DNA from: Paracoccaceae bacterium
Lineage (GTDB): Bacteria > Pseudomonadota > Alphaproteobacteria > Rhodobacterales > Rhodobacteraceae
NCBI GenBank assembly: GCA_011389685.1
Contig: JAABTV010000009.1
Coordinates: 1 to 64,000 of the forward strand
Length of the DNA stretch: 64,000 bases
Direction: 5' to 3'
Under the pieces are notes generated by a model. It did no database searches. It was not told the DNA's origin and saw only the letters and a program-made list of their open reading frames with translations. The translations under genes were made by a program, and so were the position numbers. Positions 14,150 to 46,642 of the stretch are shown here, piece after piece; position 1 is the stretch's first letter; each line of letters opens with the position of its first letter.

Positions 14150-15966
14150 TACCCGCTATCCGTAGTCAGGATGAAATGGCCCGGGCTGACCTCTTCGAAC
14201 TCCGACGGCGCGGGCTCATAGCCGACCGGATGAATGGGCGACGGGATCGGCTTGAAGTTCAATTCCTTTTCCAGTTTCCGCCGATGCGGATCGGCGATCG
14301 GAACTGCCTTCATCAGCGCCTTGGTATAGGGGTGTTGCGGGTCTTCGAACACCGCCCGGCGCGGCCCCATCTCGACGATCCGGCCAAGATACATCACCCC
14401 CACATCGTGGCTGACCCGTTCGACCACCGCCATGTCATGGCTGATGAACAGATAGCTGAGGCCCAGCTCGGCCTGAAGCTCCATCATAAGGTTCAGAACC
14501 TGCGCCTGCACGCTCACATCCAGTGCCGACACCGCCTCGTCCGCGACAATCAGCTTGGGGTTCAACGCCAGTGCCCGCGCGATCGCCACCCGCTGGCGCT
14601 GCCCGCCCGACAATTCATGGGGAAACCGCCGCAGGAAACTGCGCGGCAATTCCACCCGGTCGAAAAGCTGCGCCACACGGTCCTGCAATTCCTTGCCCTT
14701 GGCGACATGGTAGTTGCGCAGCGGCTCGGCCACCTGGTCCATCAGCTGCATCTGCGGGTTGAGGCTCGCGAACGGGTCCTGGAACACCATCTGCATGTCG
14801 ACCCGCGCCTTTTGCAGCCCATCATGGCCCAGCGCCATGATATCCACGCCGCCCAGCGTCACATGCCCTTCCTGAGGCTCGACCAGCCGCAGGATCGAAC
14901 GGCCCACGGTGGATTTGCCGCAACCCGATTCCCCCACGAGGCTCAGCGTCCGGCCCTTGCGGATCGAAAAGGACACATCCTCGACCGCATGCACATTGGC
15001 CACGGTCCGGCGAAAGAACCCGCCCTTGACCGGGAACCGCGTGGTCAGGTTGCGCACCTCCAGAAGCACCTCCTCGCTGCCCGGAATCGGGTCGGTTCGA
15101 TGCCCCTCGACCCCCAGAAGCTTCATCGGCGCGGGCAGGTCCTTGCCGTTCATCTCGCCCAGCCGCGGCACCGCCGAGAGCAGCGCCTTGGTGTAGTCGT
15201 GCCGCGGATTCTCGAAGATCTGTTCGACGGTCCCCTCTTCGACCTTGTTGCCACGATACATCACGACCACACGGTCGGCCATCTGCGCCACCACCGCCAT
15301 GTCGTGGGTGATGAACATCACCGCCGTCCCGGTCTCGCGCTTCAAGCGGTTCATCAGCGCCAGAATCTCGGCCTGGATCGTCACGTCAAGCGCCGTCGTC
15401 GGCTCGTCCGCGATCAACAGGCGCGGCTCACAGGCCAGCGCCATGGCGATCACCACGCGCTGGCGCATGCCGCCCGACAATTCATGCGGATATTGCTTCA
15501 ATCTCCGCTCGGCCTCGGGGATTCGCACCTGCTTGAGCAGTTCCAGCGCCCGCGCCTCGGCCTGTTTGCGGTTCATCCCCATGTGCAGGCGCAGCCCTTC
15601 AGTCAACTGCCGTTCCACGGTGAAAACCGGGTTGAGCGCCGTCATCGGCTCTTGAAAGATCATCCCGATCTCGTTGCCGCGAATCGTGCGCATCAGCCCC
15701 TGGTCGGTCCGCGCCAGGTCGATCTCGCCGCCCTCGCGCCGGTTGAACAGGAGCCGCCCGCCCGCGATCTCGCCGCCCCCATATTCGACCAGCCGCATCA
15801 GCGACAGCGATGACACCGACTTGCCCGACCCGGATTCGCCAACGATGCAAACGGTTTCGCCCGGCGTGATCTCGAACGATACCTCCTCGACCCCGACGAC
15901 CGGTCCATCCTTGGTCTGAAACTCCACCCGGAGTTTCTCGATCTTCGCAATCGGCTGGTCGAGCAT
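14146..15966 (-). CDS. ABC transporter ATP-binding protein, fused double-ATPase (peptide/nickel type)
   Basis: 606 aa; two Walker A (GESGSGKS, GESGCGKS), two signatures (LSGGMRQRV, LSGGQRQRV). Confidence 0.95.
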   Translation of the reverse strand: MLDQPIAKIEKLRVEFQTKDGPVVGVEEVSFEITPGETVCIVGESGSGKSVSSLSLMRLVEYGGGEIAGGRLLFNRREGGEIDLARTDQGLMRTIRGNEIGMIFQEPMTALNPVFTVERQLTEGLRLHMGMNRKQAEARALELLKQVRIPEAERRLKQYPHELSGGMRQRVVIAMALACEPRLLIADEPTTALDVTIQAEILALMNRLKRETGTAVMFITHDMAVVAQMADRVVVMYRGNKVEEGTVEQIFENPRHDYTKALLSAVPRLGEMNGKDLPAPMKLLGVEGHRTDPIPGSEEVLLEVRNLTTRFPVKGGFFRRTVANVHAVEDVSFSIRKGRTLSLVGESGCGKSTVGRSILRLVEPQEGHVTLGGVDIMALGHDGLQKARVDMQMVFQDPFASLNPQMQLMDQVAEPLRNYHVAKGKELQDRVAQLFDRVELPRSFLRRFPHELSGGQRQRVAIARALALNPKLIVADEAVSALDVSVQAQVLNLMMELQAELGLSYLFISHDMAVVERVSHDVGVMYLGRIVEMGPRRAVFEDPQHPYTKALMKAVPIADPHRRKLEKELNFKPIPSPIHPVGYEPAPSEFEEVSPGHFILTTDSGY

Positions 15967-16256
15967 GGAAATCCCCGTCGCATGTGCTGGATATTATGAA
16001 ACGCTAACGACAGCTTCGCGGCGATGTCAAACATTTGGGCGGTGACGAAAAAAAAGGCACCGACCCGGAGGCAAGTCTTGCATTTTGCGCCCACTCGGTC
16101 TGTGATGCGAGGCAGTTGCCGGGGCGGGTCTGCGAAATCGGGGGCCTTCGTCCGCCCGATCGTGTTAAATGTCATCCCGGCAAACCAAACGAAAACCGCG
16201 CCGTTCGCGTGGCAACAAACGCACAGGCGCAAGACCTGTCCAACAAGGAGTGAGAC

Positions 16257-17957
16257 ATGAAAGTGAAAGCAACCCTGCTCGGCGCCGCCGCAGCGTTCGC
16301 ACTGGCCCCCGCGGCCATGGCGGAACGCGGATCGGATGGCCACGTCAACATCATCTACTGGCAGGCCCCGTCGATCCTGAACCCCTATCTCTCCGGCGGC
16401 ACCAAGGATATCGAGTCCGCGTCGCTGGTGATCGAACCGCTGGGCCGCTACGACGAGAACGGCAATCTGGTGCCTTATCTGGCCGCCGAGATCCCCACCG
16501 TCGAAAACGGTGGCGTGTCCGAGGATCTCAAGACCATCACCTGGAATCTGAAGGACGGGCTGCTCTGGTCCGACGGTTCGCCGGTCACATCGGCCGACGT
16601 GGCCTTCACCGCCGAGTATTGCATGCATCCCGAAGGCGGTTGCGCCCAGCTCGCAAAATTCGATGGCGTCGAGAGCATCGAAACCCCGGACGACCTGACC
16701 GTCGTGGTGAATTTCAAGGAACCCAAGCCCAACCCCTATGGTCCCTTCATGGGTGGCCAGTCGCCAATCATCCAGAAGGCCCAGTTCGAGAACTGCCTCG
16801 GCGCCAAGGCGCCCGAATGCACCGATGCGAATTTCGGCCCGATCGGCACCGGCCCCTTTGTCGTCGACGAGTTCAAGCCCAATGACGTGATCGCCATGTC
16901 GGCCAACCCCAACTACCGCGATCCGGACAAGCCCGCCTTCGCCACGCTGACCTTCAAGGGTGGCGGCGATGCCACCGGCGCGGGCCGCGCGGTGCTGGAA
17001 ACCGGCGAGTTCGACTATGCCTGGAACCTGCAGCTTGCCCCCGATGTGATCGCCAAGATGGCAGAGGGCGGCAAGGGCAAGACCATCGCGGCCTTCGGCA
17101 CGCTGGTCGAACGGATCGAGATGAACCTGACCGATCCGAGCCCGGATCTGCCGGCCGATGTGCGCGCGACCCGCAAGGCACCGCACCCGTTCCTGTCGGA
17201 ACTGGCCGTGCGCAAGGCGCTCTCGATGGCCATCGACCGCGAATTGCTGGTCGAGATCGGCTATGGTCAGGCCGGACGCCCGACCTGCAACCTCGTGCCC
17301 GCGCCCGAGATGTTCGCCTCGGACAACACCGACTGCCTGACCCAGGACATCGAAGGCGCCAAGGCGCTTCTTGAAGAGGCCGGCTGGACCGTGGGTTCTG
17401 ACGGTGTGCGCTCCAAGGACGGTGTGCGCCTCTCGATCCTCTACCAGACCTCGACCAACGCCGTCCGTCAGGACTTCCAGGCGCTGATCAAGCAGTGGTG
17501 GGAGGAAATCGGCGTCGAGACCGAACTGCGCAACATCAACGCCTCGGTGTTCTTCGGCGGTGATCCGGGTTCGCCCGACACTTTCCAGAAGTTCTATGCC
17601 GATGTCGAGATGTATGCCAACAACTTTGACGGCACAGATCCGCAGGCCTATCTTTCGATGTATCGCTGTGGCAACGAACCCAAGCCCTCGAGCCAATGGC
17701 AAGGTGAGAACATCAACCGGTTCTGCGATCCGGAATATGATGCGCTTCTCGACGAGCTGTCGCAGACCGGCGTCCTTGAAGAGCGTGGCCGCATCGCCAA
17801 GAAGCTCAACGAGATGCTGACCAAGGAAAGCTACACCATCGTTCCGCTGGTCGATCGCGGTCGGGTCTCGGCCCATTCGAACACGCTGGGCGGCGTTGTC
17901 CTCAACACCTGGGACAGCGAACTCTGGAACGTGGCCGACTGGTATCGCATCAAGTGA
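16257..17957 (+). CDS. Peptide-type ABC transporter substrate-binding protein (SBP family 5)
   Basis: 566 aa; signal peptide MKVKATLLGAAAAFALAPAAMA, SBP_bac_5 features (LSELAVRKALSMAIDRELL). Confidence 0.92.
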   Translation: MKVKATLLGAAAAFALAPAAMAERGSDGHVNIIYWQAPSILNPYLSGGTKDIESASLVIEPLGRYDENGNLVPYLAAEIPTVENGGVSEDLKTITWNLKDGLLWSDGSPVTSADVAFTAEYCMHPEGGCAQLAKFDGVESIETPDDLTVVVNFKEPKPNPYGPFMGGQSPIIQKAQFENCLGAKAPECTDANFGPIGTGPFVVDEFKPNDVIAMSANPNYRDPDKPAFATLTFKGGGDATGAGRAVLETGEFDYAWNLQLAPDVIAKMAEGGKGKTIAAFGTLVERIEMNLTDPSPDLPADVRATRKAPHPFLSELAVRKALSMAIDRELLVEIGYGQAGRPTCNLVPAPEMFASDNTDCLTQDIEGAKALLEEAGWTVGSDGVRSKDGVRLSILYQTSTNAVRQDFQALIKQWWEEIGVETELRNINASVFFGGDPGSPDTFQKFYADVEMYANNFDGTDPQAYLSMYRCGNEPKPSSQWQGENINRFCDPEYDALLDELSQTGVLEERGRIAKKLNEMLTKESYTIVPLVDRGRVSAHSNTLGGVVLNTWDSELWNVADWYRIK

Positions 17958-17973
17958 TCAACGTCTGATCTAA

Positions 17974-17997
17974 GGGGCGCCCTTCGCGGGGTGCCCC
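17974..17997 (+). terminator. Intra-operon stem-loop between SBP and permease genes
   Basis: GGGGCGCCC-ttcgc-GGGGTGCCCC, no poly-T tail; likely 3' stabilising or attenuating hairpin. Confidence 0.5.
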
Positions 17998-18050
17998 GTC
18001 ATCATCACGCCAAGAAAAAACAAAAAGACCGTTCAACAAGGGCGTCCCCC

Positions 18051-19115
18051 ATGCTGACTTTCTCCATCCGACGGCTGGTTCTTTCCGTGCCGACGCTCTT
18101 GTTCATCGCTCTTGTCATCTTTCTTCTGCTGCAACTCGCCCCCGGCGACCCGATGGCGCAGGTGCCGCTGACCGTCCCTCCCGAGGTCAAGCAGAAGATG
18201 CGCGAGGCGCTGGGCCTCGGTCAGCCGATCCACGTGCAGTTCTGGAAATGGCTGGTCCAGATGTTCTGGATCGAGCCGCAGGTCTTCATCGACTGGCTCA
18301 CCAACAAGAGCGCCCTGTTCGGCTGGCTGCCCGATACCGATCTCTACACCGCCTGCGGCGGGGCGGTCGAAGGTCCCTGCGATCTGCGCGTGATCTCATG
18401 GCAGACCCGCTCGCCGGTGATGGACATCGTGGTGCAACGCCTGCCGCAAACGCTCTGGGTCGTGGGCATGGCCTATGTCGTGGGCATCCTGATCGCCATT
18501 CCCATCGGCATCTACTCGGCCTACCGGCAATATTCGGTCTTCGATCAGGCCGGCACCTTCATCACCATGATCGGCTTTTCGATCCCGCCCTTCTTCACCG
18601 GCCCGCTGCTGATCGTGATCTTCTCGGTGCAACTGGGCTGGTTTCCCTTCATCTACGACACCACCCATGTGGTCGAGGACTGGGACAGCTTCGTGTTTCA
18701 ACTCCGACAGATGCTGATGCCGGTGATGGTGCTCGCGCTTCAGACCACCGCACAGATCAGCCGCTTCATGCGCGCCTCGATGCTCGACAACCTCAATCAG
18801 GACTACGTGCGCACCGCCCGTGCCAAGGGCCTGTCCGAGGCGGTCGTCGTCATGATCCACGTGCTGCGCAACTCGATGATCCCGGTCGTCACCGTAATCG
18901 CGCTCGGCGTGCCCGCCATCTTCGGCGGCGCCATCATCACCGAGGTCGTGTTCTCGGTGAACGGCATCGGGCAGTTGCTGATCACCGCGCTTTTCGCCAA
19001 TGACCTGCCGATGGTGATGACCATCACCTTCATGTTCGCGGTGCTCATCGTGTTCTTCAACCTGATCGCCGATATCCTCTACGGCCTTCTCGACCCGAGG
19101 ATCCGCTATGACTGA
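18051..19115 (+). CDS. ABC transporter permease (DppB-like)
   Basis: 354 aa from MLTFSIRRLVLSVPTLLFIALVIFLLLQLAPGDP; BPD permease motif. Confidence 0.93.
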   Translation: MLTFSIRRLVLSVPTLLFIALVIFLLLQLAPGDPMAQVPLTVPPEVKQKMREALGLGQPIHVQFWKWLVQMFWIEPQVFIDWLTNKSALFGWLPDTDLYTACGGAVEGPCDLRVISWQTRSPVMDIVVQRLPQTLWVVGMAYVVGILIAIPIGIYSAYRQYSVFDQAGTFITMIGFSIPPFFTGPLLIVIFSVQLGWFPFIYDTTHVVEDWDSFVFQLRQMLMPVMVLALQTTAQISRFMRASMLDNLNQDYVRTARAKGLSEAVVVMIHVLRNSMIPVVTVIALGVPAIFGGAIITEVVFSVNGIGQLLITALFANDLPMVMTITFMFAVLIVFFNLIADILYGLLDPRIRYD

Positions 19116-20082
19116 TCCGATGCCCCAAACCCCGCTCAACGCGCTTCAGGAGCCCGAGATCACCCAGCCCGCGCGCTCGCAATGGCGCGATGTCTGGGAC
19201 CAGTTCAAACACCACAAGGGCGCCCTTATGGGCGGCGGGTTCCTGATCTTCATCACGCTGGCCGTGCTGTTCGGCGATTTGATCTGGCAAATCGACCCCA
19301 AGAAGCTCGACATCCGCAACAAGGATGTCCGCCCGATCTACACCGCGATCTGGGAGTCGGACGCCAAGGTCAGTTGGGCGAACCCGCTGGGCACGGACAA
19401 TCTCGGGCGCGACCAGCTCGCGCAGGTCCTCGCCGGCGGCCGGGCCTCGATGGCGGTGGGCTGGGCGGCGATGATCCTGACCATGCTGATCGGCACCACC
19501 ATCGGCGTGCTGGCCGGGTTCTTCCGACGGCTCGACGGGCCATTGATGCGCTTCACCGACCTCGTGCTCTCGCTGCCCATCCTGCCCTTGCTTCTGGTGG
19601 CGGTGACGCTGTTCCGGCAACCGCTCCGGGCCAATTTCGGCCCCGAGATGGGCATGTTCATCCTGATCGTGGGCGTCATCGGCGTGACCTCGTGGATGCA
19701 GGCCGCGCGGATCGTGCGCGGCGACATTCTCGCCCTCAAGGAGCGGGAATTCGTGCTCGCCGCCCGCGCCGCCGGCACCACTTCGCGCGGCATCATCTTC
19801 CGCCACCTTCTGCCCAACGTGCTCTCGCCGCTCATGGTCTCGGCAACGCTCGGGCTGGCCACCGCGATCATCACCGAAAGCGCGCTGTCGTTCCTCGGCG
19901 TCGGCTTCCCGTCGGATTTCCCGACCTGGGGCAAGATGCTGGCCGACGCGGTGCCCCGGATGCAGGAATATCCCGAACGGGTGATGCTGCCCGGCATGAT
20001 GATCTCGCTCACCGTGCTGTCGGTGAACTACCTCGGCGACGGGCTGCGCGACGCGCTCGACCCGCGCATCCGCGGCCGCTGA
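19108..20082 (+). CDS. ABC transporter permease (DppC-like)
   Basis: 324 aa; NPLGTDNLGRDQLAQVLAGGRASM, C-terminal NYLGDGLRDALDPRIRGR; 8-bp overlap with upstream gene. Confidence 0.93.
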   Translation: MTDPMPQTPLNALQEPEITQPARSQWRDVWDQFKHHKGALMGGGFLIFITLAVLFGDLIWQIDPKKLDIRNKDVRPIYTAIWESDAKVSWANPLGTDNLGRDQLAQVLAGGRASMAVGWAAMILTMLIGTTIGVLAGFFRRLDGPLMRFTDLVLSLPILPLLLVAVTLFRQPLRANFGPEMGMFILIVGVIGVTSWMQAARIVRGDILALKEREFVLAARAAGTTSRGIIFRHLLPNVLSPLMVSATLGLATAIITESALSFLGVGFPSDFPTWGKMLADAVPRMQEYPERVMLPGMMISLTVLSVNYLGDGLRDALDPRIRGR

Positions 20083-32519: not shown

Positions 32520-33935
32520 ATGCGCTGGAGCGATTTTCCCAAATGGGGCACATGGTTGGGCGACTGGGCCGCGCGCTATCACGCCGGGCTGCGCGACCGC
32601 CCGGTGCGCGCGCGAACGAAACCCGGCGAGATCGCCGCCCAACTGCCGCAAAGCCCCCCGGAAGAGCCGCAGCCGCTTGACGATGTGATCGCCGATTTCG
32701 AACGCATCGTCATGCCCGGCATGACCCATTGGCAGCACCCGCGCTTCTTCGCCTATTTCCCCTCGAACGCGGCCCCGGCCTCTGTGCTGGCCGATCAGAT
32801 CGTCACCGTCATGGCCCCGCAATGCATGCTCTGGCAGACCTCTCCGGCGGCGACCGAGATGGAAACCCGGATGATGGACTGGCTCCGCCAGGCCATCGAC
32901 CTGCCCGACGCCTTTCACGGCGTCATCCAGGATTCGGCCTCATCGGCCACGCTGGCCGCGATGCTGACCCTGCGCGAACGCGCGCTCGGCTGGCAGGGCA
33001 ACCAAGCGGGGATTTCCGGCCAGCCCCGGCTGCGCGTCTATGCCAGTGCCGAGGTGCATACATCCATCGACCGCGCGATCTGGATTTCCGGCATCGGGCA
33101 GGAAAACCTCGTGCGCATCCCCACGACCGGCCCCCTGCGCGCAATGGACACCGCCGCGCTCGACGCCGCGATCCGCGCCGACCTCGCCGCCGGATACCGG
33201 CCCGCAGGCATCATCGCCTGCACCGGCGGCACCGGCACCGGCGCTTGCGACGACATTTCCGCCACCTGTGACGTGGCCAAAGACCACGGGCTGTTCATCC
33301 ATGTCGATGCGGCCTGGGCCGGCGCGGCGATGATCGTGCCCGAGTTTCGCAGCCTCTGGGCCGGGGTGGAGCGCGCCGACAGCGTGGTCCTGAACCCCCA
33401 TAAATGGCTGGGCACGCAGTTCGACCTTTCGGCCCATTTCGTGAAATCGCCCGAGGATCTGACCCGCACCCTTTCGATCCAGCCCGAATACCTCAAGACC
33501 CATGGCGCCGACGGGATCATCAACTATTCGGAATGGTCGGTGCCGCTGGGGCGGCGGTTTCGCGCCCTGAAGCTCTGGTTCCTGATCCGCGCCCATGGCC
33601 TTTCAGGCCTGCGCGACCGCATCCGCAACCATGTCGCCTGGTCCGAGGCGCTCGCCGAACGGCTGCGCGCCACACCCGGCTTCGAGATCGTGACCGAGCC
33701 GGTCCTGTCGCTCTTCACCTTCCGCTACGCGCCCGAGGGCACGACCGACCCGGACGCGCTCAACCTTGCGCTGGTGAATGCGATCAACGACGATGGCCGC
33801 ATCTACCTGACCCAGACCCGCACGGGCGGCGCGCTCGTCATCCGCTTCCAGGCCGGTCAGTTCGACGCCACCGAAGCGGATGTCGCCGCCGCCTTTGACG
33901 TGATCACCGAGATCGCCGCCACACTGAAGGAGTAA
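32520..33935 (+). CDS. PLP-dependent decarboxylase (group II, aromatic-L-amino-acid decarboxylase-like)
   Basis: 471 aa; HPRFFAYFPSNAAPASVLAD, QDSASSATLAAMLTLRERA, VDAAWAGAAMI, NPHKWLGTQFD (PLP lysine). Confidence 0.9.
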   Translation: MRWSDFPKWGTWLGDWAARYHAGLRDRPVRARTKPGEIAAQLPQSPPEEPQPLDDVIADFERIVMPGMTHWQHPRFFAYFPSNAAPASVLADQIVTVMAPQCMLWQTSPAATEMETRMMDWLRQAIDLPDAFHGVIQDSASSATLAAMLTLRERALGWQGNQAGISGQPRLRVYASAEVHTSIDRAIWISGIGQENLVRIPTTGPLRAMDTAALDAAIRADLAAGYRPAGIIACTGGTGTGACDDISATCDVAKDHGLFIHVDAAWAGAAMIVPEFRSLWAGVERADSVVLNPHKWLGTQFDLSAHFVKSPEDLTRTLSIQPEYLKTHGADGIINYSEWSVPLGRRFRALKLWFLIRAHGLSGLRDRIRNHVAWSEALAERLRATPGFEIVTEPVLSLFTFRYAPEGTTDPDALNLALVNAINDDGRIYLTQTRTGGALVIRFQAGQFDATEADVAAAFDVITEIAATLKE

Positions 33936-33937
33936 CC

Positions 33938-34711
33938 ATGCCCGCCCCCGTGAACCGTTTCAAGGCCGCCCTGAAAGAGGGCAAGATGCAATATGGCTGC
34001 TGGGCCAGCTTCGCCGATCCTTACGCCACCGAAATGCTGGCCAGCGCCGGGTTTGACTGGTTGGTGATCGACGGCGAACACGCGCCCAACGATCTGCAAA
34101 CCATCTCAGGGCAGGTCCAGGTGCTGCAACACGAGCATTCCGAGGCGGTCGTGCGCATCCCGATCGGGCGCGACTGGATCATCAAGCAGGTGCTCGATAC
34201 CGGCTGCCAGACCATCCTCGTGCCGCTGGTGGAAACCGCCGATCAGGCCGCCGATCTGGCCCGCGCCATGCGCTACCCTCCCGAGGGCAATCGCGGCATG
34301 GGCGGCGCCGGTGCCCGGGCCACCCGTTTCGGCGCGATCGCCGACTACGTGGCCACCGCCAATGATCAGGTCTGCCTCTTGCTGCAGGTCGAAACGGCGA
34401 AGGGTCTCGAGAACCTCGATTCGATCCTCCAGGTCGAGGGTGTGGACGGGGTGTTCATCGGCCCGGCCGACCTCTCGGCCGATATGGGCCATCCGGGCAA
34501 TGCCGGCGCCCCCGAGGTGCAAGAGGCGATCCGCGACGCCCTTGCCCGCATCAAGGCCTCCGACAAGGCGCCCGGCATCCTCGCCGTGGATGACGGCGTG
34601 GCGCAGCAATATGCCGACTGGGGCTCGCAGTTCCTGGCCGTCGGGATCGACGTGCTGATGCTGGTGCGCAGCGCCCGCGAGACCATCGCCCGCTGGCGCG
34701 CAAGGGGCTGA
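33938..34711 (+). CDS. HpcH/HpaI-family aldolase
   Basis: 257 aa; FDWLVIDGEHAPND, VETAKGLENLDSIL, GVFIGPADLSADMGHPG. Confidence 0.92.
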   Translation: MPAPVNRFKAALKEGKMQYGCWASFADPYATEMLASAGFDWLVIDGEHAPNDLQTISGQVQVLQHEHSEAVVRIPIGRDWIIKQVLDTGCQTILVPLVETADQAADLARAMRYPPEGNRGMGGAGARATRFGAIADYVATANDQVCLLLQVETAKGLENLDSILQVEGVDGVFIGPADLSADMGHPGNAGAPEVQEAIRDALARIKASDKAPGILAVDDGVAQQYADWGSQFLAVGIDVLMLVRSARETIARWRARG

Positions 34712-34915: not shown

Positions 34916-35566
34916 ATGGCAGGCCAGACCGAAACCATCATCTCCGCGGTGCTCGCGGATATCGACACGGGCCATCTCAACCCCGGTGATTCGATCGAGG
35001 AACAGGCCCTGATCGACGCCCACGGCGTCTCGCGCACCCCCGTCCGCGAAGCGATGATCCAGCTCGAAACCGCCGGTCTCATCACCCGCCACCCGCGCAA
35101 GGGCGCCACCGTCTTTCGCCCCACGCTCGAGGAATTCCTCGCGATTCTCGAAGTCCACGCCAAGCTCGAAGGCCAGGCTGCGGGGCTCGCCGCGCGGCGG
35201 CTGTCGAAATCCCATGCACGCACCCTCGAGGCCGCCACCGCGGCCTGCGAGGCCCACGCCGCCACCCATGGCGACGCGGAGCCCGATCACTATTATCAAC
35301 TCAATCTCGACTTTCACCGCAGCGTCGCCGAAGCGGCTGGAAACCCGTTCCTGCTCGACATGATCAAGACCAACGCGCGCAAGCTCATGGCCTATTACCG
35401 CGCGCGTTATCACTATGCCGGCGTGATCGAGACATCGGCGCGCGAGCATCGCGAAATCGCCAAGCTGATCGCCAGCCGCCGCGCCGCCGAGGCCGAAGAG
35501 GCGATGGCCCTGCATGTCAGCTTTGATCATGTGACCGCGATGGACCTGCTCGCCGCGCTCGCCTGA
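34916..35566 (+). CDS. GntR-family transcriptional regulator (FCD/FadR subfamily)
   Basis: 216 aa; wHTH NPGDSIEEQALIDAHGVSRTPVREAMIQLETAGLITRHPRKGATV. Confidence 0.9.
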   Translation: MAGQTETIISAVLADIDTGHLNPGDSIEEQALIDAHGVSRTPVREAMIQLETAGLITRHPRKGATVFRPTLEEFLAILEVHAKLEGQAAGLAARRLSKSHARTLEAATAACEAHAATHGDAEPDHYYQLNLDFHRSVAEAAGNPFLLDMIKTNARKLMAYYRARYHYAGVIETSAREHREIAKLIASRRAAEAEEAMALHVSFDHVTAMDLLAALA

Positions 35567-35569
35567 GGA

Positions 35570-36265
35570 TCACCTGGCAGGACGCTTGTTTTGTTCAAGA
35601 AATTGCGCAATCCACTCGGCCGTATCAGCCATGTCTGGTGCTGTGCTCAGTGTCGCGCGCGCCCGTGCCGTGATCTCGGGGCCAAGCTCATCGGCCAGTT
35701 CCTCGATCAGCGCCGCGACGAATTCCGGCTCCATCTCGGGGTGGTATTGCGTCGTCATCACGCCATCGCCCACCACGAACCCGGCCACCGCGCAGCCCGG
35801 CCCGGTGGCGATCACCTCCGCCCCTTCGGGCAGCTGCACGACCTGTTCGGAATGGCTGGAGTAGATCGGCATTTTCCGCCCATCGGTGAATTCCGCCTCG
35901 ACCTGCCCAAAGACCCAGCCGCCCGGGTTCGCCCCCACCTTGCCGCCCAGCGCGGTGGCGATCACCTGGTGCCCGAAACAGGCCCCGAAAAGCGGAATGC
36001 CCGCCGCGATGATCTCGCGCACCAGCGCTTCCAGCCGCGCCACCCACTCCGCCCCCGAATTGACCGAGGCCGGCGAGCCGGTGATCATCACCCCGTCGAT
36101 CCCCTCAAGCGTGTCGGGAAACACCCCGTCCTTGACCGGGTAGACCACGAACGCCCAATCCGGCCTGACCCGCCACATCATCGCGGGAAACTTCTCGCCA
36201 TCCCTGGGCCAGCGATGGGCAAAATCGCTCTCGTCGGTATTGGTCATCAGGATCGCGATGCGCAT
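35570..36265 (-). CDS. Class I glutamine amidotransferase-like protein (GMP synthase GATase-like)
   Basis: ~231 aa; GACFGHQVIATALGG (Cys nucleophile), YHPEMEPEF (His/Glu). Confidence 0.87.
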   Translation of the reverse strand: MRIAILMTNTDESDFAHRWPRDGEKFPAMMWRVRPDWAFVVYPVKDGVFPDTLEGIDGVMITGSPASVNSGAEWVARLEALVREIIAAGIPLFGACFGHQVIATALGGKVGANPGGWVFGQVEAEFTDGRKMPIYSSHSEQVVQLPEGAEVIATGPGCAVAGFVVGDGVMTTQYHPEMEPEFVAALIEELADELGPEITARARATLSTAPDMADTAEWIAQFLEQNKRPAR

Positions 36266-36349
36266 GGCCGATTTCCTTTGCATATTTACTGTTCTTTACA
36301 ATATACTTAACATCACAACAACACGAATCCACCGCGGGAGGCGCCGAAA

Positions 36350-37609
36350 ATGACCATCTGGACCCCGACCGATGACGGCCATGCCGACCTCACCAGCCAC
36401 GACAGCTTCGCGCGCGGCGCGCCGCACAACACCTTTGCGCGCCTGCGCCGCGACGATCCGGTACACTGGACCGCCTATGACCAGGGCGAGGATTTCTGGT
36501 CGATCACCCGCAACGCCGACATCACCGAGATGAACCGCAACACCGCCGTCTTTTCCTCGGCACGCGGTATCCGGATGGAGGATCAGAGCTACGAGGAATA
36601 CCTCGCCCGCCGCACCTTTCAGGAGACCGACCCGCCCGAGCACATGATGACCCGGATCAAGGTCGCCAAGGCATTCTCCAAACCCGTGATCGCCGCCTTT
36701 GAAGAGGATATCCGCAAACTCTGTGACGAAATCCTTGACCAGGCGCTCGCCCGGGACAGCTTTGACGCAACGAAAGAGATCGCCCGGCAGTTGCCGATGC
36801 GGATGCTGGGCCGCATCCTCGGCCTGCCAGACGCGGATCTGCCGTGGCTCGTGGAAAAGGGCGATGCGCTCATTGCCAATACCGACCCGGATTTCACCGA
36901 TCACGTGCTCGATCAGATGACCACGGACGAGTTTCGCATGATGCCCTTCAACTCACCCGCCGGGGCGGAGCTTTTCCAATATGCCAGGAAACTCATGGCC
37001 GAGAAGGAAGCGTCCGGCGACACGTCCGGCGTGCTGCACATGATCCGCCAGCCCGCCAGGGACGGCAGCGTGATCACCGAAGAGGAGTTTCGCAACTTCT
37101 TCTGCCTGCTGGTGGCGGCGGGCAACGACACCACGCGCTATTCCATCGCCGCGGGCATCCAGGCCATGTGCCACCAGCCCGAACTCCTTGAACATATGCA
37201 GGCGGGTGGCGACATCTGGGACACGGCTCCGGATGAGATCATCCGCTGGGCCACGCCCGCGCTCTATTTCCGACGCACCGCGCTGCAAGATCATGAAATT
37301 CATGGGAAAAAGGTCCGCGAAGGCGACAAGGTGCTGTTCTGGTGGATCTCGGCCAATCGCGACGAGGCCGCGTTCGACGACCCGTTCCGCGTGAATCTCT
37401 TTCGCAGCCCCAACAAGCACCTGAGTTTCGGCCAGGGTGGCCCGCATGTCTGTCTGGGCATGTGGCTCGCGCGGCTCGAAGTGCGGGTCTTGTTTCAGGA
37501 ACTGGCCAAACGCATCAAATCGGTTCAGGCTGACGGCGACCACGAATTCCTCCGCTCGAATTTCGTGGGCGGGATCAAGAAGCTGCCGGTGCGGATCACC
37601 CGCGCGTAA
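36350..37609 (+). CDS. Cytochrome P450
   Basis: 419 aa; I-helix LLVAAGNDTTRYSI, ExxR (EIIR), heme loop FGQGGPHVCLGMWLAR. Confidence 0.95.
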   Translation: MTIWTPTDDGHADLTSHDSFARGAPHNTFARLRRDDPVHWTAYDQGEDFWSITRNADITEMNRNTAVFSSARGIRMEDQSYEEYLARRTFQETDPPEHMMTRIKVAKAFSKPVIAAFEEDIRKLCDEILDQALARDSFDATKEIARQLPMRMLGRILGLPDADLPWLVEKGDALIANTDPDFTDHVLDQMTTDEFRMMPFNSPAGAELFQYARKLMAEKEASGDTSGVLHMIRQPARDGSVITEEEFRNFFCLLVAAGNDTTRYSIAAGIQAMCHQPELLEHMQAGGDIWDTAPDEIIRWATPALYFRRTALQDHEIHGKKVREGDKVLFWWISANRDEAAFDDPFRVNLFRSPNKHLSFGQGGPHVCLGMWLARLEVRVLFQELAKRIKSVQADGDHEFLRSNFVGGIKKLPVRITRA

Positions 37610-37636
37610 AAGGCAGGCCAGACCAGGGAGACCACC

Positions 37637-38926
37637 ATGCAAGACCGCCTGCGCGCGATATTCTGCGATCACCTGTCGATCATCCGCGGCAAATACCTCC
37701 CGCACACAAAAATCGCCGATTCCGGCACCCGCTTCTGCCGCTCGACCTTCGGTGTGCATTACGACAAGGATCTGCTCGACGCGCCGGGCGCGATGATGAT
37801 GCAGGGCCTGCCCGACATGGAACTGCGCTGGCGCCATGACGAGATCCGCCAGAGCTGGGACGAGCGCACGCAGATCGTGATCGGCGACCTTTTCGACGAC
37901 GCGGGCGAGCCGCTGCCGCTCTGCCCGCGCGGGGCATTGAAGCGCGCGGTGGCCGACTGGCGCAAGCGCGGGCTCAACCCCAAGGTCGGGATCGAACTGG
38001 AATGCTTTGCCCTGCAGGCCGACGAAGAGGGCCGCCTTGCCCCCTATGACGCGCCCGGCGGCGTGGTTTACGGCACCGGGCCGATGACCGACCCGCTGCG
38101 CTTCAACGATGCGATCTGGGACATGGCCGAGCAGCTGGGGTTTCACCTCGAAATGATCACCGCCGAGTTCGACAGCCCGCAATTCGAATACGTGCTGACC
38201 TTTGACGACGCGGTCAAGGCGGTGGACGATATCGTCCTGTTCCGCCTCATGGCGCGCGAGATCGCGCTCGAACACGGTGTGATCCTGAGCTTCATGCCCA
38301 AACCCATTGCCGAGGCCGGCGGCTCGGGCATGCATGTCAACTTTTCCTTCACCGAAGAGGATGGCGGCAACGCGCTCTCCGCCGGTCCGCGCGGCGGGCC
38401 CGAGCACATGAACGATCTGGCGCGCGGATGCCTTGCCGGTCTTCTGCATCATCACAAGGGGCTTGCGGGCCTCATCGCGCCGACCGCGAATTCCTATCAG
38501 CGGCTTCAACCCGGTTCGCTTTCGGGGTTCTGGCAGAACTGGGGCGGCGATCACCGCAACGTCACCACGCGCATATCCTCCGAAGGCGGCGCCAAGGCCC
38601 GGCTCGAACACCGCATGGCCGATGCCAGCGCCAACCCCTATACCGCCACGGCCGCCGTGCTTCAGGCCGCGCGGCTGGGCGTCGAGAATGGATACGACCT
38701 GCCCCCGATCGAGACCGGCGACGGGTTCGACAACACTGATGCCAAGGAAAGCACCGCCATCGACCTGCGCGGCGCAATTGCCGATCTGAAGGCCGACAGT
38801 GCGCTCTGCGCCGCGGTGGGGCCGCTTCTGTGTGACAACCACATCTACATGAAGGAAAAGGAAGTGAAAAAGACCAGGGATCTCGAAGGCGACGCGCTGC
38901 GCGATTTCTACGTCTATTTCGTCTGA
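37637..38926 (+). CDS. Glutamine synthetase-like protein (probable gamma-glutamyl-amine ligase)
   Basis: 429 aa; GS motifs VGIELECFAL, AEFDSPQFEY, EAGGSGMHVNFSF, APTANSYQRL, LEHRMADASANPY. Confidence 0.88.
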   Translation: MQDRLRAIFCDHLSIIRGKYLPHTKIADSGTRFCRSTFGVHYDKDLLDAPGAMMMQGLPDMELRWRHDEIRQSWDERTQIVIGDLFDDAGEPLPLCPRGALKRAVADWRKRGLNPKVGIELECFALQADEEGRLAPYDAPGGVVYGTGPMTDPLRFNDAIWDMAEQLGFHLEMITAEFDSPQFEYVLTFDDAVKAVDDIVLFRLMAREIALEHGVILSFMPKPIAEAGGSGMHVNFSFTEEDGGNALSAGPRGGPEHMNDLARGCLAGLLHHHKGLAGLIAPTANSYQRLQPGSLSGFWQNWGGDHRNVTTRISSEGGAKARLEHRMADASANPYTATAAVLQAARLGVENGYDLPPIETGDGFDNTDAKESTAIDLRGAIADLKADSALCAAVGPLLCDNHIYMKEKEVKKTRDLEGDALRDFYVYFV

Positions 38927-38941
38927 GCCAAGGGAGGATAC

Positions 38942-39256
38942 ATGAAAGTCACCTGGAAACTGCCCGACGGCGGCGAAAAGACCGCCGAGGTCGAGCCCGG
39001 CACCTCGATGATGCAGGCCGCCGTGGACAACAACGTGCCCGGCATCATCGGTGAATGCGGCGGCACGCTCTCCTGTGCGACCTGCCATGTCTATGTCGAT
39101 GACGCATGGCTCGATCAAACGGGTGGCGCGGATGATTTCGAGGATGCGATGCTCGACGTGGCCGAGGCCGAGCGCCACGCCACCTCGCGCCTCAGTTGCC
39201 AGATCGAGGCCGATGACGATCTCGACGGGCTGGTGCTGATCGTGCCGCAGCCCTGA
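38942..39256 (+). CDS. [2Fe-2S] ferredoxin (putidaredoxin/adrenodoxin type)
   Basis: 104 aa; GECGGTLSCATCHVYVDDAW (CX5CX2C) and distal Cys RLSCQIEADDDLDGLVLIVP. Confidence 0.93.
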   Translation: MKVTWKLPDGGEKTAEVEPGTSMMQAAVDNNVPGIIGECGGTLSCATCHVYVDDAWLDQTGGADDFEDAMLDVAEAERHATSRLSCQIEADDDLDGLVLIVPQP

Positions 39257-39287: not shown

Positions 39288-41171
39288 TCAGTAAAGCAGG
39301 TTCAGAACCACCATCGACACGATCAGGAACAGAACCGTCATCACTCCGCCCGAGCGCACGAAATCGGCCACCTTGTAGCCCGCCGGCCCCATGATCAGCG
39401 CGTTGACCTGATGCGTCGGGATCAGGAAGGAATTCGAGGTCGAGATCGCCACCGTCAGTGCGAATATCGCCGGATCGCCGCCCGTCGCCACCGCGATCGA
39501 CACCGCCAGCGGCACCAGCAGGACCGTGGCCCCCACATTCGACATGACCAGCGTGAACACCGTGGCCAGGATCGCGATCCCGACCTGCAAGGCCCAGACC
39601 GGCCAGCCGTCCAGCAAACGCAGCACCTGATGCGCGATCCAGTCGGCCGTGCCCGTGGCCTGCACGGCGTGGCCCAGCGGAATGAGACTCGCCAACAGGA
39701 ACACCGTTTGCCAACTGACCGCCCTGTAGGCTTCGTCGATGCGCAGCACCCGCGACGCGATCATCCCCACAGCCCCCACCAGAAGCGCCAGCGACAGCCG
39801 CACATCGCTGAAAATGACCAGAATCAGCGCCACGAGGAAAAAGAACAACGCCCAACCCACTTTCTGCGGGCGCAGTTCCTCGCGCGGAAAATCAGATGTG
39901 ACCACCACGAAGTCCCGCCCCCGCGCCAACCGCGCCAGCGCGTCCCAGGCGGTGAACACCGCCAGCGTGTCACCCTCCTGCAAGCGCACGTTCAGGATAT
40001 CGTCGGCCTCGTGGTCCCGGGTCTCGACCAGCGACAGCGTTTCTCCCTGCCGATGCACCGCCAGAAGCGACAGGCCATAGGTCCGCCGCAACGCCAGTTC
40101 CAGCGGCGTCTTGCCGATCACGACGCTGCCCGGTGGCACGACGACCTCGCCCACCCCGGTCACGGTCGGTGCGAAATCGTCGGCAAAAATGTCGAGATCA
40201 TCCAGCACCTCGAGCCCATACCAACCCGCGACCTCTTCGACCACCCGGCGGCGACCCAATACCGCCAGGCGGCAGGGCGTCTGGATCTTGGTCGCCACCG
40301 GCGGCGTCATCCAGCGCCGCCCGCCATGATAGGATCCGATGATGTAAAGGTTGTGCGCCAGCATGATGTCACGAAATTCCTGACCTTCGAGCAGGTTGCC
40401 CGCTGGCACGATCACCTCGATGATGTCGGATTTGAGGCCATAGGTCTTCTTGAGATACTCGCCCATCGCCTGCCCCGATGTGCGGTCATCGCTGGCGCCG
40501 CGGCTGGGCAGCACCCACCGCCCCAGCAGCATGAAATAGAGAATCCCGGTGGCCACGAGGGCCAGCCCCACGGGCGTGACCGAAAACAGGCCGAACCGCT
40601 CCATCTGCTGCGATGCAGGCAGGGTCTCGTTGGCGCTCAGGATCAGGTCGTTGAGAAGGATCAGCGGCGATGAGCCGACAAGCGTCATCGTCCCGCCCAG
40701 GATGGCGCAAAACCCCATCGGCATCAGCAAGCGCGACAGTGGCAACCCGGTGCGCACCGAAATCCGGCTGACCACCGGAAGAAACAGCGCCGCCGCGCCC
40801 ACGTTCTGCATGAAGGACGAAATCACCCCCACCGTGCCCGAGATGATCGGGATGATCCGTGCCTCGGTCCGCCCGCCATAGCGCAGGATCACCGCCGCCA
40901 CCTTGCTCATCAGCCCGGTCCGGTCAAGCCCCGCGCCGATGATCATCACCGCGATGATCGAGATCACGGCGTTGGAGGAAAACCCCGCGAAAAGATGCCG
41001 CTCATCGGCCAGCCCGCCCAAACCCGGAAACTGGCTCAGCATCCCCAGCAGCACCATCATCAGGATCGCGGTGACGTCGATGCGAAACACCTCGGTCACG
41101 AAAAGCGTCACCGTCAGCGCCAGAACCCCGAGAACGACCATCATCTCGGTGGTCAGCACGATCGGATCCAT
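39288..41171 (-). CDS. SLC13/DASS-family anion transporter with RCK/TrkA-C domains
   Basis: 627 aa; TM halves flanking GEVVVPPGSVVIGKTPLELALRRTYGLSLLAVHRQGE (TrkA-C), SNVGATVLLVPLAVSIA. Confidence 0.85.
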   Translation of the reverse strand: MDPIVLTTEMMVVLGVLALTVTLFVTEVFRIDVTAILMMVLLGMLSQFPGLGGLADERHLFAGFSSNAVISIIAVMIIGAGLDRTGLMSKVAAVILRYGGRTEARIIPIISGTVGVISSFMQNVGAAALFLPVVSRISVRTGLPLSRLLMPMGFCAILGGTMTLVGSSPLILLNDLILSANETLPASQQMERFGLFSVTPVGLALVATGILYFMLLGRWVLPSRGASDDRTSGQAMGEYLKKTYGLKSDIIEVIVPAGNLLEGQEFRDIMLAHNLYIIGSYHGGRRWMTPPVATKIQTPCRLAVLGRRRVVEEVAGWYGLEVLDDLDIFADDFAPTVTGVGEVVVPPGSVVIGKTPLELALRRTYGLSLLAVHRQGETLSLVETRDHEADDILNVRLQEGDTLAVFTAWDALARLARGRDFVVVTSDFPREELRPQKVGWALFFFLVALILVIFSDVRLSLALLVGAVGMIASRVLRIDEAYRAVSWQTVFLLASLIPLGHAVQATGTADWIAHQVLRLLDGWPVWALQVGIAILATVFTLVMSNVGATVLLVPLAVSIAVATGGDPAIFALTVAISTSNSFLIPTHQVNALIMGPAGYKVADFVRSGGVMTVLFLIVSMVVLNLLY

Positions 41172-44023: not shown

Positions 44024-44812
44024 TCAACAGCACCTGCGGAATCCGGATATGTCGCAGGCGCCTTCCAGCGGGAGCGCCCGTTCATCGACATTGACGAGAT
44101 CGCGCAGCAGCGGATCATCCCGCGTTTTCTCGACGAACCCGAAGATCGTGGCTTCGCTGCGCGTGCCGGGTGCCCCGGGCGGGGTGAGGCTGCCGGTGAT
44201 CCCCCTGCCCTGCCGGTCGAGCACCGCGATGCGATGGGCCAGGCGGGCGGCCTCGAACAGGTCATGCGTGATGAAAAGCCCGCCGAACCCGCGCGCCCCG
44301 GACAGCGACAGAACGAGATCCTGCATGCGGCGGCGCAAGGCCGGGTCCAGCGCCGCAAAGGGCTCGTCGAAGACCAGGAAATCCGGCTCGACCACGAGCG
44401 CCCGGGCGATGGCGACCCGCGCGCGCATCCCGCCCGAAAGCGCATCGGGACGTTTCGACAGGTCGTCGGGCCGAAGCGCAACGGCCTCGGCCGCCGCCTG
44501 AACCCGCGCCGCGATCCGCTCGGCGCCCATTCCGGCGAGTTGCAGCGGAAAGCCGATGTTGTCGCGCGCATCGGCCCAGGGCAGCAGGCGCGCTTGCTGA
44601 AACACCATGCCGTGGCGTGCATAGCGGCGCATGATCCGCCCCCGATCGGGTTTCAGGACACCGCCCGCGATCGCCGCGAGCGTGCTCTTGCCGCTGCCCG
44701 AAGGGCCAACGAGGGCCACCAACTCGCCGGGCCGGATCACCAGCGACACGGTATCAAGCACGCGCCGCCCGGCAAAGGCGTGGCTGATCGTGGCGAGGGT
44801 CAGGCCGCTCAT
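44024..44812 (-). CDS. ABC transporter ATP-binding protein (nitrate/sulfonate/taurine-type)
   Basis: 262 aa from MSGLTLATISHAFAGRRVLD; Walker A GPSGSGKST, LSGGMRARVAIARAL, VFDEPFAALDP. Confidence 0.92.
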   Translation of the reverse strand: MSGLTLATISHAFAGRRVLDTVSLVIRPGELVALVGPSGSGKSTLAAIAGGVLKPDRGRIMRRYARHGMVFQQARLLPWADARDNIGFPLQLAGMGAERIAARVQAAAEAVALRPDDLSKRPDALSGGMRARVAIARALVVEPDFLVFDEPFAALDPALRRRMQDLVLSLSGARGFGGLFITHDLFEAARLAHRIAVLDRQGRGITGSLTPPGAPGTRSEATIFGFVEKTRDDPLLRDLVNVDERALPLEGACDISGFRRCC

Positions 44813-45648
44813 CCGTCCGGCCTTTGCCAATGGCCGGTGCGGCTCTGCAACGGGCGGATCAGCAGGTGTTCGATCAGCAACAGGCCGATGACCGCCAGCG
44901 CGACATTGGCCAGTGCCATGTCGATATCCATCTGCGCGCGGGCGCGGGCCATCTCGGCGCCGAGGCCCGCGACATTGGTCACCAGTTCGGCCATGATCGC
45001 CACCTTGAAGCCCAGCGCCAGCGCGATGCCGATGACCGGGCCCAGCGCCGCGAGGATCTGGCGCAGGGCGACGCGGTGAAACCGGGCCAGCGCGGAGGCG
45101 CCGAAACTCGCGGCCATGTCTTCGAGCCGCCGGTCGCGGCCGCGCACCGCATCGACCGTGCCGATATAGAGGATCGGCCCGGTGACAATGGCGATGGTAA
45201 AGAGGATCGCCCCGTGCGAGGGACCAAACCAGATCATCGTCAGGATGACCCAGGCGGTGGCGGGCATACCCAAAAGTATGATCGCCACGGGCGCAAGTAT
45301 CGCGCGGATCACCGCGACATAGCCCGAAAGCAGGCCAAGCCCGCCACCGATCACCACCGAAAGCCCGAGCGCGAGCAGCACCCGCGCCAGCGTGGCGCCC
45401 AGAGCGGCCCAGCCGGCCAGCCCCGAAAGCGCGGTGACGGTGGCCGCCACCGTCTGCCATGGCGAGGGCAGGATGAACGCGCCGTACTGCAAATGCGCCG
45501 CCTGCCAGAGCGCGAGAAAGAGCGCGATGCCGATGAGCGGCGGGCCGATCCGCCACGCTGCGCGCCCGGCCAGAACGGGCAGCATGTCGGCCCATTCCGC
45601 AAGGCGCTCACGTTGCCGCGCGCGGATGAGGCCCGGATCAAAGCGCAT
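44809..45648 (-). CDS. ABC transporter permease (SsuC/TauC-like)
   Basis: 279 aa from MRFDPGLIRARQRER; BPD permease motif MAASFGASALARFHRVALRQILAALGPVIGIALALGFKVAI. 4-bp overlap with the ATPase gene. Confidence 0.88.
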   Translation of the reverse strand: MRFDPGLIRARQRERLAEWADMLPVLAGRAAWRIGPPLIGIALFLALWQAAHLQYGAFILPSPWQTVAATVTALSGLAGWAALGATLARVLLALGLSVVIGGGLGLLSGYVAVIRAILAPVAIILLGMPATAWVILTMIWFGPSHGAILFTIAIVTGPILYIGTVDAVRGRDRRLEDMAASFGASALARFHRVALRQILAALGPVIGIALALGFKVAIMAELVTNVAGLGAEMARARAQMDIDMALANVALAVIGLLLIEHLLIRPLQSRTGHWQRPDG

Positions 45649-46642
45649 AGAGCGCATCATCCGGCAACCGCCCGCCGATGATCCCCGGATCGGCGGCCAA
45701 CAGCGCATTGTAGAGGGCCTCGACCTCGGGTCTGGCCTGCGAGGCGGCGCGCACCGAGATGCTGGCAAAGGGGATCGCCTCTTCCAGAAGCCCCGGCGCC
45801 CGGTCGAGAAACGCGCCCGCATGCGCCGCCGCCGCGCCCGGATCGGCATTGAGCGAGGCCGTCGCTCGTGCCAGCGCGTCATTCAGCGCCCCGGCCAGCC
45901 ATGGATGATCGGCCGCGTGATCGCTGCGAATGGCCAGGCAAGCCTGCGGCAGGACCGGCCTCAAGCCGGTGATCCGGCCCAGCACCTCTTTCATCTGCAC
46001 GCCACGGTGCAGCCCCTGCCCATTGCTCCCCGTGGCGCGCGCGCGGCGCAGCACGGCCGTGGCCGCCGGTTCAGCGATCAGGGCGGCGTCGGCCCGCCCG
46101 GCCAGCAGAAGCTGACCGGCTTCCATATGGGTCGCCGCCGGGAGCAGTTCCAGCGCGTCAGGGCCGACTCCGGCCGCGCGCAGGCCAAGGCGCATCATGT
46201 GGCCGGTAAAGCCGTTGATGCCCGACAGGGCCACGCGTTTACCGCGCAGATCGGCGATGTCGCAGCCCGCGATGTCGCGCGCGACAAGCCCGCAATGCCC
46301 GTCGGTCAGCGTGGCGATCATGCGCAGGCCAAAGCCGCGATTGTAAAGGCTGGCCGCGCCCTGGGTCGGCATGACCGTTACCGGCACCTTGCCCGAGACG
46401 AAACCCGCGCGCATCTGGTCGAACCCGGACCAGATCGGCAGATCGACCGTATCGGCAAAGCTGTCGAAGGCACCGATGGCGCGGGCATGCGCCAACAGGA
46501 TTCCGGGCCCCGAGCCGGGCGTTTGCAGCACCAGCCGCGTGAGGCGCTGCGTTCCCGCGCGCAGCACCATCGGCATTGCGAGCGCGGCCACCCCGGTTAC
46601 GAGGGCGGCGCGTCGGGTGAGGGGCGATCTGTGATATGTCAT
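45638..46642 (-). CDS. ABC transporter substrate-binding protein (NMT1/SsuA-like)
   Basis: 334 aa; twin-arginine-like N-terminus LTRRAALVTGVAALA; DLRGKRVALSGINGFTGHMMRLGLRAAGV. Confidence 0.82.
   Translation of the reverse strand: MTYHRSPLTRRAALVTGVAALAMPMVLRAGTQRLTRLVLQTPGSGPGILLAHARAIGAFDSFADTVDLPIWSGFDQMRAGFVSGKVPVTVMPTQGAASLYNRGFGLRMIATLTDGHCGLVARDIAGCDIADLRGKRVALSGINGFTGHMMRLGLRAAGVGPDALELLPAATHMEAGQLLLAGRADAALIAEPAATAVLRRARATGSNGQGLHRGVQMKEVLGRITGLRPVLPQACLAIRSDHAADHPWLAGALNDALARATASLNADPGAAAAHAGAFLDRAPGLLEEAIPFASISVRAASQARPEVEALYNALLAADPGIIGGRLPDDALYAL

Follow-up and report, generated by a model that had tools for sequence, protein, structure and literature searches.

In the isopropylamine (Ipu) pathway, the ligase IpuC glutamylates isopropylamine, a cytochrome P450 system oxidises the resulting gamma-glutamyl-isopropylamide, and the product is then released by a hydrolase of the amidotransferase type (PMC6776027). 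In the aniline system, a glutamine synthetase (GS)-like ligase, an amidotransferase-like hydrolase and a Rieske dioxygenase work together, and it is the gamma-glutamylated aromatic amine that is oxygenated (PMC11335346). The module analysed here lies in a 64,000-nucleotide stretch of contig JAABTV010000009.1 from a Paracoccaceae bacterium (the whole stretch is referred to below as the window), and its core consists of genes for a P450, a GS-fold ligase and a [2Fe-2S] ferredoxin at positions 36350-39256. It is a real and widely conserved unit whose logic is a known one, built from different parts and probably directed at a different substrate. On balance, and with modest confidence, we read it as the route by which an arylethylamine, likeliest tyramine (or phenethylamine), enters catabolism through gamma-glutamylation-dependent P450 oxidation. 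This reading draws on gene content, gene order, active-site residues, lineages and co-occurrence, from which we infer both the substrate and the regiochemistry of the P450.

Relation to described glutamylation systems

Like the Ipu clusters of Pseudomonas KIE171 and Paenarthrobacter TC1, the module brings together genes for a GS-fold gamma-glutamylamide synthetase, a P450, a ferredoxin and a class-I amidotransferase; Ipu-like adjacency of the P450, ferredoxin and amidotransferase genes is seen in the window and in 56-71 relatives, and the gene set predicts the same succession of glutamylation, oxidation and hydrolysis. In the two Ipu clusters of Paenarthrobacter aurescens TC1 (pTC1/pTC2), ipuC is accompanied by genes for a P450, a ferredoxin, a ferredoxin reductase and an amidotransferase, and a similar Ipu-type cluster is found in Aminobacter SR38. 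However, the window proteins share only 25-26% (ligase) and 24-26% (P450) identity with their Ipu counterparts and fall into separate, well-supported clades in both trees. Furthermore, the Ipu clusters include a ferredoxin reductase gene, whereas no such gene is present within the window operon (in L140 and L141 one lies directly 3' of the ferredoxin gene), and the module, unlike Ipu, is neighboured by genes of aromatic pathways. Since the ligase and the P450 both fall outside the Ipu lineages, their pairing looks convergent with Ipu.

The aniline/1-naphthylamine pathway (AtdA1/TdnQ/NpaA1, AtdA2) likewise combines a GS-like ligase, a GATase-like hydrolase and an oxygenase. The module was nevertheless not assigned to the AtdA/TdnQ/NpaA systems, which are defined by a two-component Rieske dioxygenase: in the operon its place is taken by the P450 and the putidaredoxin-type ferredoxin, and the putative substrate is an arylethylamine instead of an aniline. 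With Escherichia coli PuuA/PuuC/PuuD the module shares a ligase with an altered ammonium site and a gamma-glutamyl hydrolase, and the PuuC-like aldehyde dehydrogenase found near its relatives also recalls the Puu pathway; however, the ligase is only 27% identical to PuuA, far under the PuuA equivalog cut-off, and the oxidation step, carried out by the flavoenzyme PuuB in the Puu pathway, is predicted to fall to the P450. In PipA-type loci for cyclic secondary amines (Mycobacterium, Gulosibacter), P450, ferredoxin and GS genes are also adjacent, a likeness at the level of gene content; in Gulosibacter the GS gene adjoins pipA-type P450s and was treated as serving ammonium assimilation (PMC9477822). 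Finally, a plasmid of Sagittula stellata E-37 (L119:5920-9227) carries GS, GATase and P450 genes, overlapping or nearly touching, beside a salicylyl-CoA 5-hydroxylase gene. Its GS is only 22% identical to that of the window, but its P450 is 37% identical; the set looks like an independent version of the same logic.

Properties of the encoded proteins

Aligned with E. coli GlnA, the ligase retains the metal, ATP and glutamate residues (E129, E131, E212, E220, H269, R321, R339, R344, E357 and R359) and is changed at three ammonium-site positions (Y179 to V, N264 to G and E327 to L), at which PuuA and IpuC likewise deviate from GlnA. This combination of conserved ATP/metal/glutamate residues and a replaced ammonium site is that of the broad class of GS-fold glutamyl organic-amide ligases (GoaS), as in PuuA and IpuC. 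A separate canonical GlnA, with every active-site residue intact, is encoded in the same genome. None of the NCBIfam equivalog cut-offs was reached by the ligase, which scored 161 bits against TIGR00653 (GlnA, cut-off 429), 180 bits against NF045547 (PuuA, cut-off 650) and 189 bits against TIGR03105 (GmaS, type III GS, cut-off 470). In the tree, the module ligases form their own clade apart from IpuC, PuuA and GlnA, split from the IpuC clade at 100/99 support; owing to long branches, the placement of PuuA and of the Sagittula GS and P450 is unsure. Housekeeping GlnA, the identity that the initial annotation had singled out beforehand for checking, is thus ruled out by ammonium-site residues, model cut-offs and tree, and membership of PuuA, GmaS or IpuC by cut-offs and clades. 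Because the ammonium site is replaced, the equivalog cut-offs are missed and the clade is separate, the enzyme is probably an organic-amine (glutamyl-amide) ligase.

The three core genes are co-directional on the forward strand, with gaps of 27 bp (P450-GS) and 15 bp (GS-ferredoxin), and their products exceed the Pfam gathering thresholds (p450, 63 bits; Gln-synt_C, ~244-245 bits; Fer2, 40 bits). All motifs previously read from the window recur in the translations, namely AGNDTT, EIIR and FGQGGPHVCLG in the P450, IELECFAL, AEFDSPQFEY, GSGMHVNFSF and NPY in the GS protein, and CGGTLSCATC in the ferredoxin. The I-helix acid-alcohol pair, ExxR and Cys motif, together with the [2Fe-2S] ferredoxin, fit a P450 of class I type; its closest solved relatives are a CYP125 ancestor, CYP126, CYP124 and CYP125. 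Among solved proteins the ferredoxin best matches a bacterial [2Fe-2S] ferredoxin and putidaredoxin (~92 bits), in agreement with its earlier designation as putidaredoxin-type. A 741-codon antisense open frame (window 36953-39178, reverse strand) spans most of this operon and is probably a high-GC (guanine-cytosine) shadow frame.

The conserved unit extends beyond the trio and includes the amidotransferase gene and a GntR/FCD-family gene; the initial annotation was correct on the trio itself and too narrow in extent, having left out both. The amidotransferase carries a Cys motif (GACFGHQ) and a His-Glu motif (QYHPE) and has gamma-glutamyl peptidase 1 as its best solved match; it is probably a gamma-glutamyl-amide hydrolase and shares only 18% identity with PuuD. 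Because a glutamylation pathway needs removal of the tag, its presence, along with the Ipu precedent of Paenarthrobacter TC1, lends support to the gamma-glutamylation-dependent amine oxidation first suggested for the trio. The regulator, whose start was set at 34916 from gene-caller score and homologue length, is probably a repressor controlling the divergent promoter region. That region contains a bipartite element, CATATTTA-N10-TAATATAC: of the 55 intergenic regions between divergent GATase and P450 genes, 43 carry it with no more than two mismatches, compared with 0.04% of shuffles; the spacing of its halves is fixed at 10 bp and the window copy has one mismatch. It could be an operator or a promoter, while no known GntR operator form (TNGTNNNACNA type) was found in the divergent region.

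Conservation and aromatic gene context

A scan of relatives with one genome per species yielded 79 loci, nearly all of which belong to the Roseobacter/Rhodobacter group; Aquicoccus porphyridii has the closest (97% identical). Gene calling and clustering on the loci gave the conserved order GntR > GATase < P450 > GS > ferredoxin. The GS gene was called in 73 loci, which also contained P450 (71), GntR (62), GATase (56) and ferredoxin (42) genes, and P450 preceded GS in 71/73. By tblastn, the GATase was detected in 86/97 loci and the ferredoxin in 53/97, the latter search adding few to the gene-call clusters; many loci of Tritonibacter, Phaeobacter and Pseudophaeobacter have no ferredoxin gene directly after GS. 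Across 246 evenly sampled order-level Rhodobacterales genomes, GS and P450 orthologues occur in the identical 41 genomes (Fisher p 1e-47), a co-occurrence without exception that bears out the co-conservation check proposed with the trio; G061, which is among these 41, has the two genes ~25 kb apart. The P450-GS association is far beyond chance. Because the sampled genomes are related, the p-values given here overstate independence.

Co-occurrence also points from the module to aromatic catabolism. The homoprotocatechuate dioxygenase HpaD (TIGR02295) is encoded in 37/41 module-bearing genomes versus 37/205 others (p 7e-19), and HpaD, HmgA and a class-III aminotransferase are encoded on other contigs of the window's own genome. 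HpaB, the usual 4-hydroxyphenylacetate hydroxylase, is missing in 39/41 module genomes, including that of the window (assembly completeness 86%). The window and its closest relatives carry, 5' of the regulator, genes for a decarboxylase-like protein and an HpaI-type aldolase. The decarboxylase (Pyridoxal_deC, 300 bits) has DOPA, tyrosine and aromatic amino acid decarboxylases as top solved matches, and its catalytic loop reads PEYLK, with the Tyr expected of a decarboxylase and not the Phe of aldehyde synthases. Its orthologues are present in 40/41 module-bearing genomes versus 29/37 genomes that have HpaD and lack the module, and lie at most 6 kb from HpaD in 27 genomes, 18 of them module-bearing. 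The HpaI-type aldolase, a conserved neighbour in 18 loci, scores 347 bits against TIGR02311, below the cut-off of 369.

Genes of three aromatic C6-C2 pathways adjoin the module in different relatives. A homogentisate link is seen in L121-L123 and type-A loci, where HmgA, maleylacetoacetate isomerase, fumarylacetoacetase and a flavin adenine dinucleotide (FAD) monooxygenase are encoded upstream; a homoprotocatechuate link is provided by HpaD in Shimia, and a phenylacetate link by paaABCD, which adjoins the module in Ruegeria TM1040 and relatives. In G061, ~30 kb hold P450, GATase, aminotransferase, aldehyde dehydrogenase, HpaF/E/D, decarboxylase, HpaG/H/I and GS genes, with HpaE, HpaD and HpaH exceeding their cut-offs. 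Of 81 long loci, 56 encode a class-III aminotransferase near the module and 48 an aldehyde dehydrogenase, for which PuuC is the best match and phenylacetaldehyde dehydrogenases are among those that follow. Genes for aromatic ring cleavage also turn up repeatedly beside remote members, one of them from Actinomycetota: in four loci of other families (L115, L116, L140 and L141), LigB-type ring-cleavage, HpaE-like, FAA-hydrolase and acetoacetate decarboxylase (ADC) genes adjoin P450-GS. In L140 (2193-11855) a single co-directional run encodes an HpaE-like protein, LigB, FAA hydrolase, an ADC-like protein, an aromatic decarboxylase, P450, GS, ferredoxin and a reductase. The ADC-like protein of L140 also occurs in L115, L116 and L120. 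Arylethylamines, tyramine first, would be the simplest common denominator of these gene contexts.

A Tm-1-like ATP-binding protein and a TctABC transporter accompany the module in many genomes (L143:10468-11706; L117:24820-26052). In the window, a CitMHS/DASS-type transporter gene with a TrkA-C domain (39288-41171, reverse strand) is convergent just past the ferredoxin gene and is not a conserved neighbour in relatives. Elsewhere on the reverse strand, two adjacent amidohydrolase-like genes (9228-10391 and 10419-11582) with very similar starts look like a tandem duplication and adjoin an FAD oxidoreductase-like gene and a peptide-type ATP-binding cassette (ABC) transporter (14146-20082), and a three-gene ABC transporter of the substrate-binding/permease/ATPase type occupies 44024-46576.

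Table 1. Positions in the window of the module components and of two context genes.
Feature	Position	Strand	Evidence
Cytochrome P450, class I type	36350..37609	+	PF00067
GS-fold glutamyl-amide ligase (predicted), altered ammonium site	37637..38926	+	PF00120
[2Fe-2S] putidaredoxin-type ferredoxin	38942..39256	+	Fer2; putidaredoxin match
Class-I glutamine amidotransferase, probable gamma-glutamyl-amide hydrolase	35570..36265	-	GATase domain; gamma-glutamyl peptidase match
GntR/FCD-family regulator, convergent with amidotransferase	34916..35566	+	GntR and FCD domains
Conserved bipartite element CATATTTA-N10-TAATATAC, divergent promoter region	36281..36306	.	Intergenic comparison
Aromatic-L-amino-acid decarboxylase-like pyridoxal phosphate enzyme (context gene, clade-specific neighbour)	32520..33935	+	Pyridoxal_deC
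HpaI-type aldolase, 4-hydroxy-2-oxoheptanedioate aldolase-like (context gene)	33938..34711	+	HpcH_HpaI

Candidate pathway and competing explanations

In the arylethylamine pathway proposed here, the amine would be supplied by the aromatic amino acid decarboxylase or by uptake, and the GS-fold ligase, to judge from its residues and lineage, would couple it to the gamma-carboxyl of glutamate at the expense of ATP. The P450, fed by the [2Fe-2S] ferredoxin, would then oxidise the gamma-glutamyl amide, in Rhodobacterales likeliest by ring 3-hydroxylation to gamma-glutamyl-dopamine. The class-I amidotransferase, for which there is precedent, would cleave the gamma-glutamyl bond to give glutamate and the oxidised amine, which the class-III aminotransferase and the PuuC-like aldehyde dehydrogenase, as neighbours and co-occurrence suggest, would convert to an arylacetate that may enter the homoprotocatechuate, homogentisate or phenylacetate pathway. 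For Rhodobacterales, ring 3-hydroxylation is favoured over hydroxylation of the alpha carbon because it would explain the HpaD genomes that lack HpaB and would give each conserved gene a part. In the open-access literature searched, which leaves out most subscription papers, no description was found of a P450 that acts on gamma-glutamyl-tyramine, -dopamine or -phenethylamine.

Several observations weigh against this pathway. Neither the module nor HpaB is present in 33 HpaD-positive genomes, so other sources of catechol exist and HpaB absence is weak evidence; in addition, HpaB and the module, viewed as alternative hydroxylases, show no negative association across the order (p 1.0), and the absence of HpaB is therefore only suggestive. 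In L143/L144 the module adjoins HpaB, which would make a ring-hydroxylating P450 redundant in these loci, and neighbouring paa genes fit a non-hydroxylated product better. Moreover, deamination by the class-III aminotransferase could take place with no glutamylation step, and in 35/81 long loci no aromatic marker lies close to the module.

Some of these points are accommodated by N-dealkylation of the same glutamylated arylethylamine, in which the P450 would hydroxylate the carbon beside the amide nitrogen to release L-glutamine and an arylacetaldehyde, with the amidotransferase recycling glutamine or proofreading the amide. As the ring stays unchanged, this chemistry suits every ring context, including the paa genes, the HpaB of L143/L144 and the homogentisate genes with their FAD monooxygenase, as well as the adjacent PuuC/phenylacetaldehyde-dehydrogenase-like enzyme. 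However, it would make the conserved aminotransferase superfluous, departs from the Ipu precedent, where the carbon hydroxylated leaves the amide intact, and does not explain where the HpaB-less genomes with HpaD obtain a catechol; we consider it unlikely, though worth retaining. Distinctly less probable is a role in the oxidation of a non-aromatic amine, comparable to that of the isopropylamine pathway, with the aromatic genes as chance neighbours in a catabolic island. The closest described architecture, the IpuC cluster, does handle isopropylamine, and the long loci devoid of aromatic markers agree with such a role, but the module correlates with HpaD genome-wide even when not adjacent to it, almost all module genomes encode the decarboxylase, and ring-cleavage genes recur beside remote members of other families, including Actinomycetota.

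It is very unlikely that GS and P450 act on different compounds, the former glutamylating amines for detoxification or storage and the latter oxidising a lipid or terpenoid: the CYP124/125 relatives of the P450 do include lipid and steroid hydroxylases, but the two genes have identical profiles in the 246 genomes, are adjacent nearly everywhere, and other P450 lineages have repeatedly and independently been paired with GS-like ligases. Least credible, and set aside given the catabolic neighbours (ring-cleavage, aldehyde-oxidation and transport genes), is a biosynthetic use of gamma-glutamyl-tyramine as a building block of a methanofuran-type cofactor or secondary metabolite. In its favour, the decarboxylase and glutamate ligase resemble the tyramine-glutamate step of methanofuran biosynthesis, but the ligase known from that route is an ATP-grasp enzyme and not of the GS type.

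Returning to the arylethylamine pathway, a bolder and rather doubtful extension would be that many Rhodobacterales degrade tyrosine by a new route, from gamma-glutamyl-tyramine through the P450 to gamma-glutamyl-dopamine, dopamine and homoprotocatechuate, in place of the flavin hydroxylase HpaBC, and that tagging followed by P450 oxidation evolved separately from the isopropylamine pathway. Arylethylamines, tyramine and phenethylamine among them, alter how the larvae of at least one marine animal, a sponge, behave (PMC10570526), and their bacterial turnover is for this reason of ecological interest. If the proposed pathway is correct, it would explain what a P450 and a GS-like ligase, both with merely generic annotations in about one sixth of the sampled Rhodobacterales genomes, are for, it would allow bacteria to convert aromatic amines to homoprotocatechuate independently of HpaBC, and it would mean that gamma-glutamyl tagging ahead of P450 oxidation has been assembled more than once.

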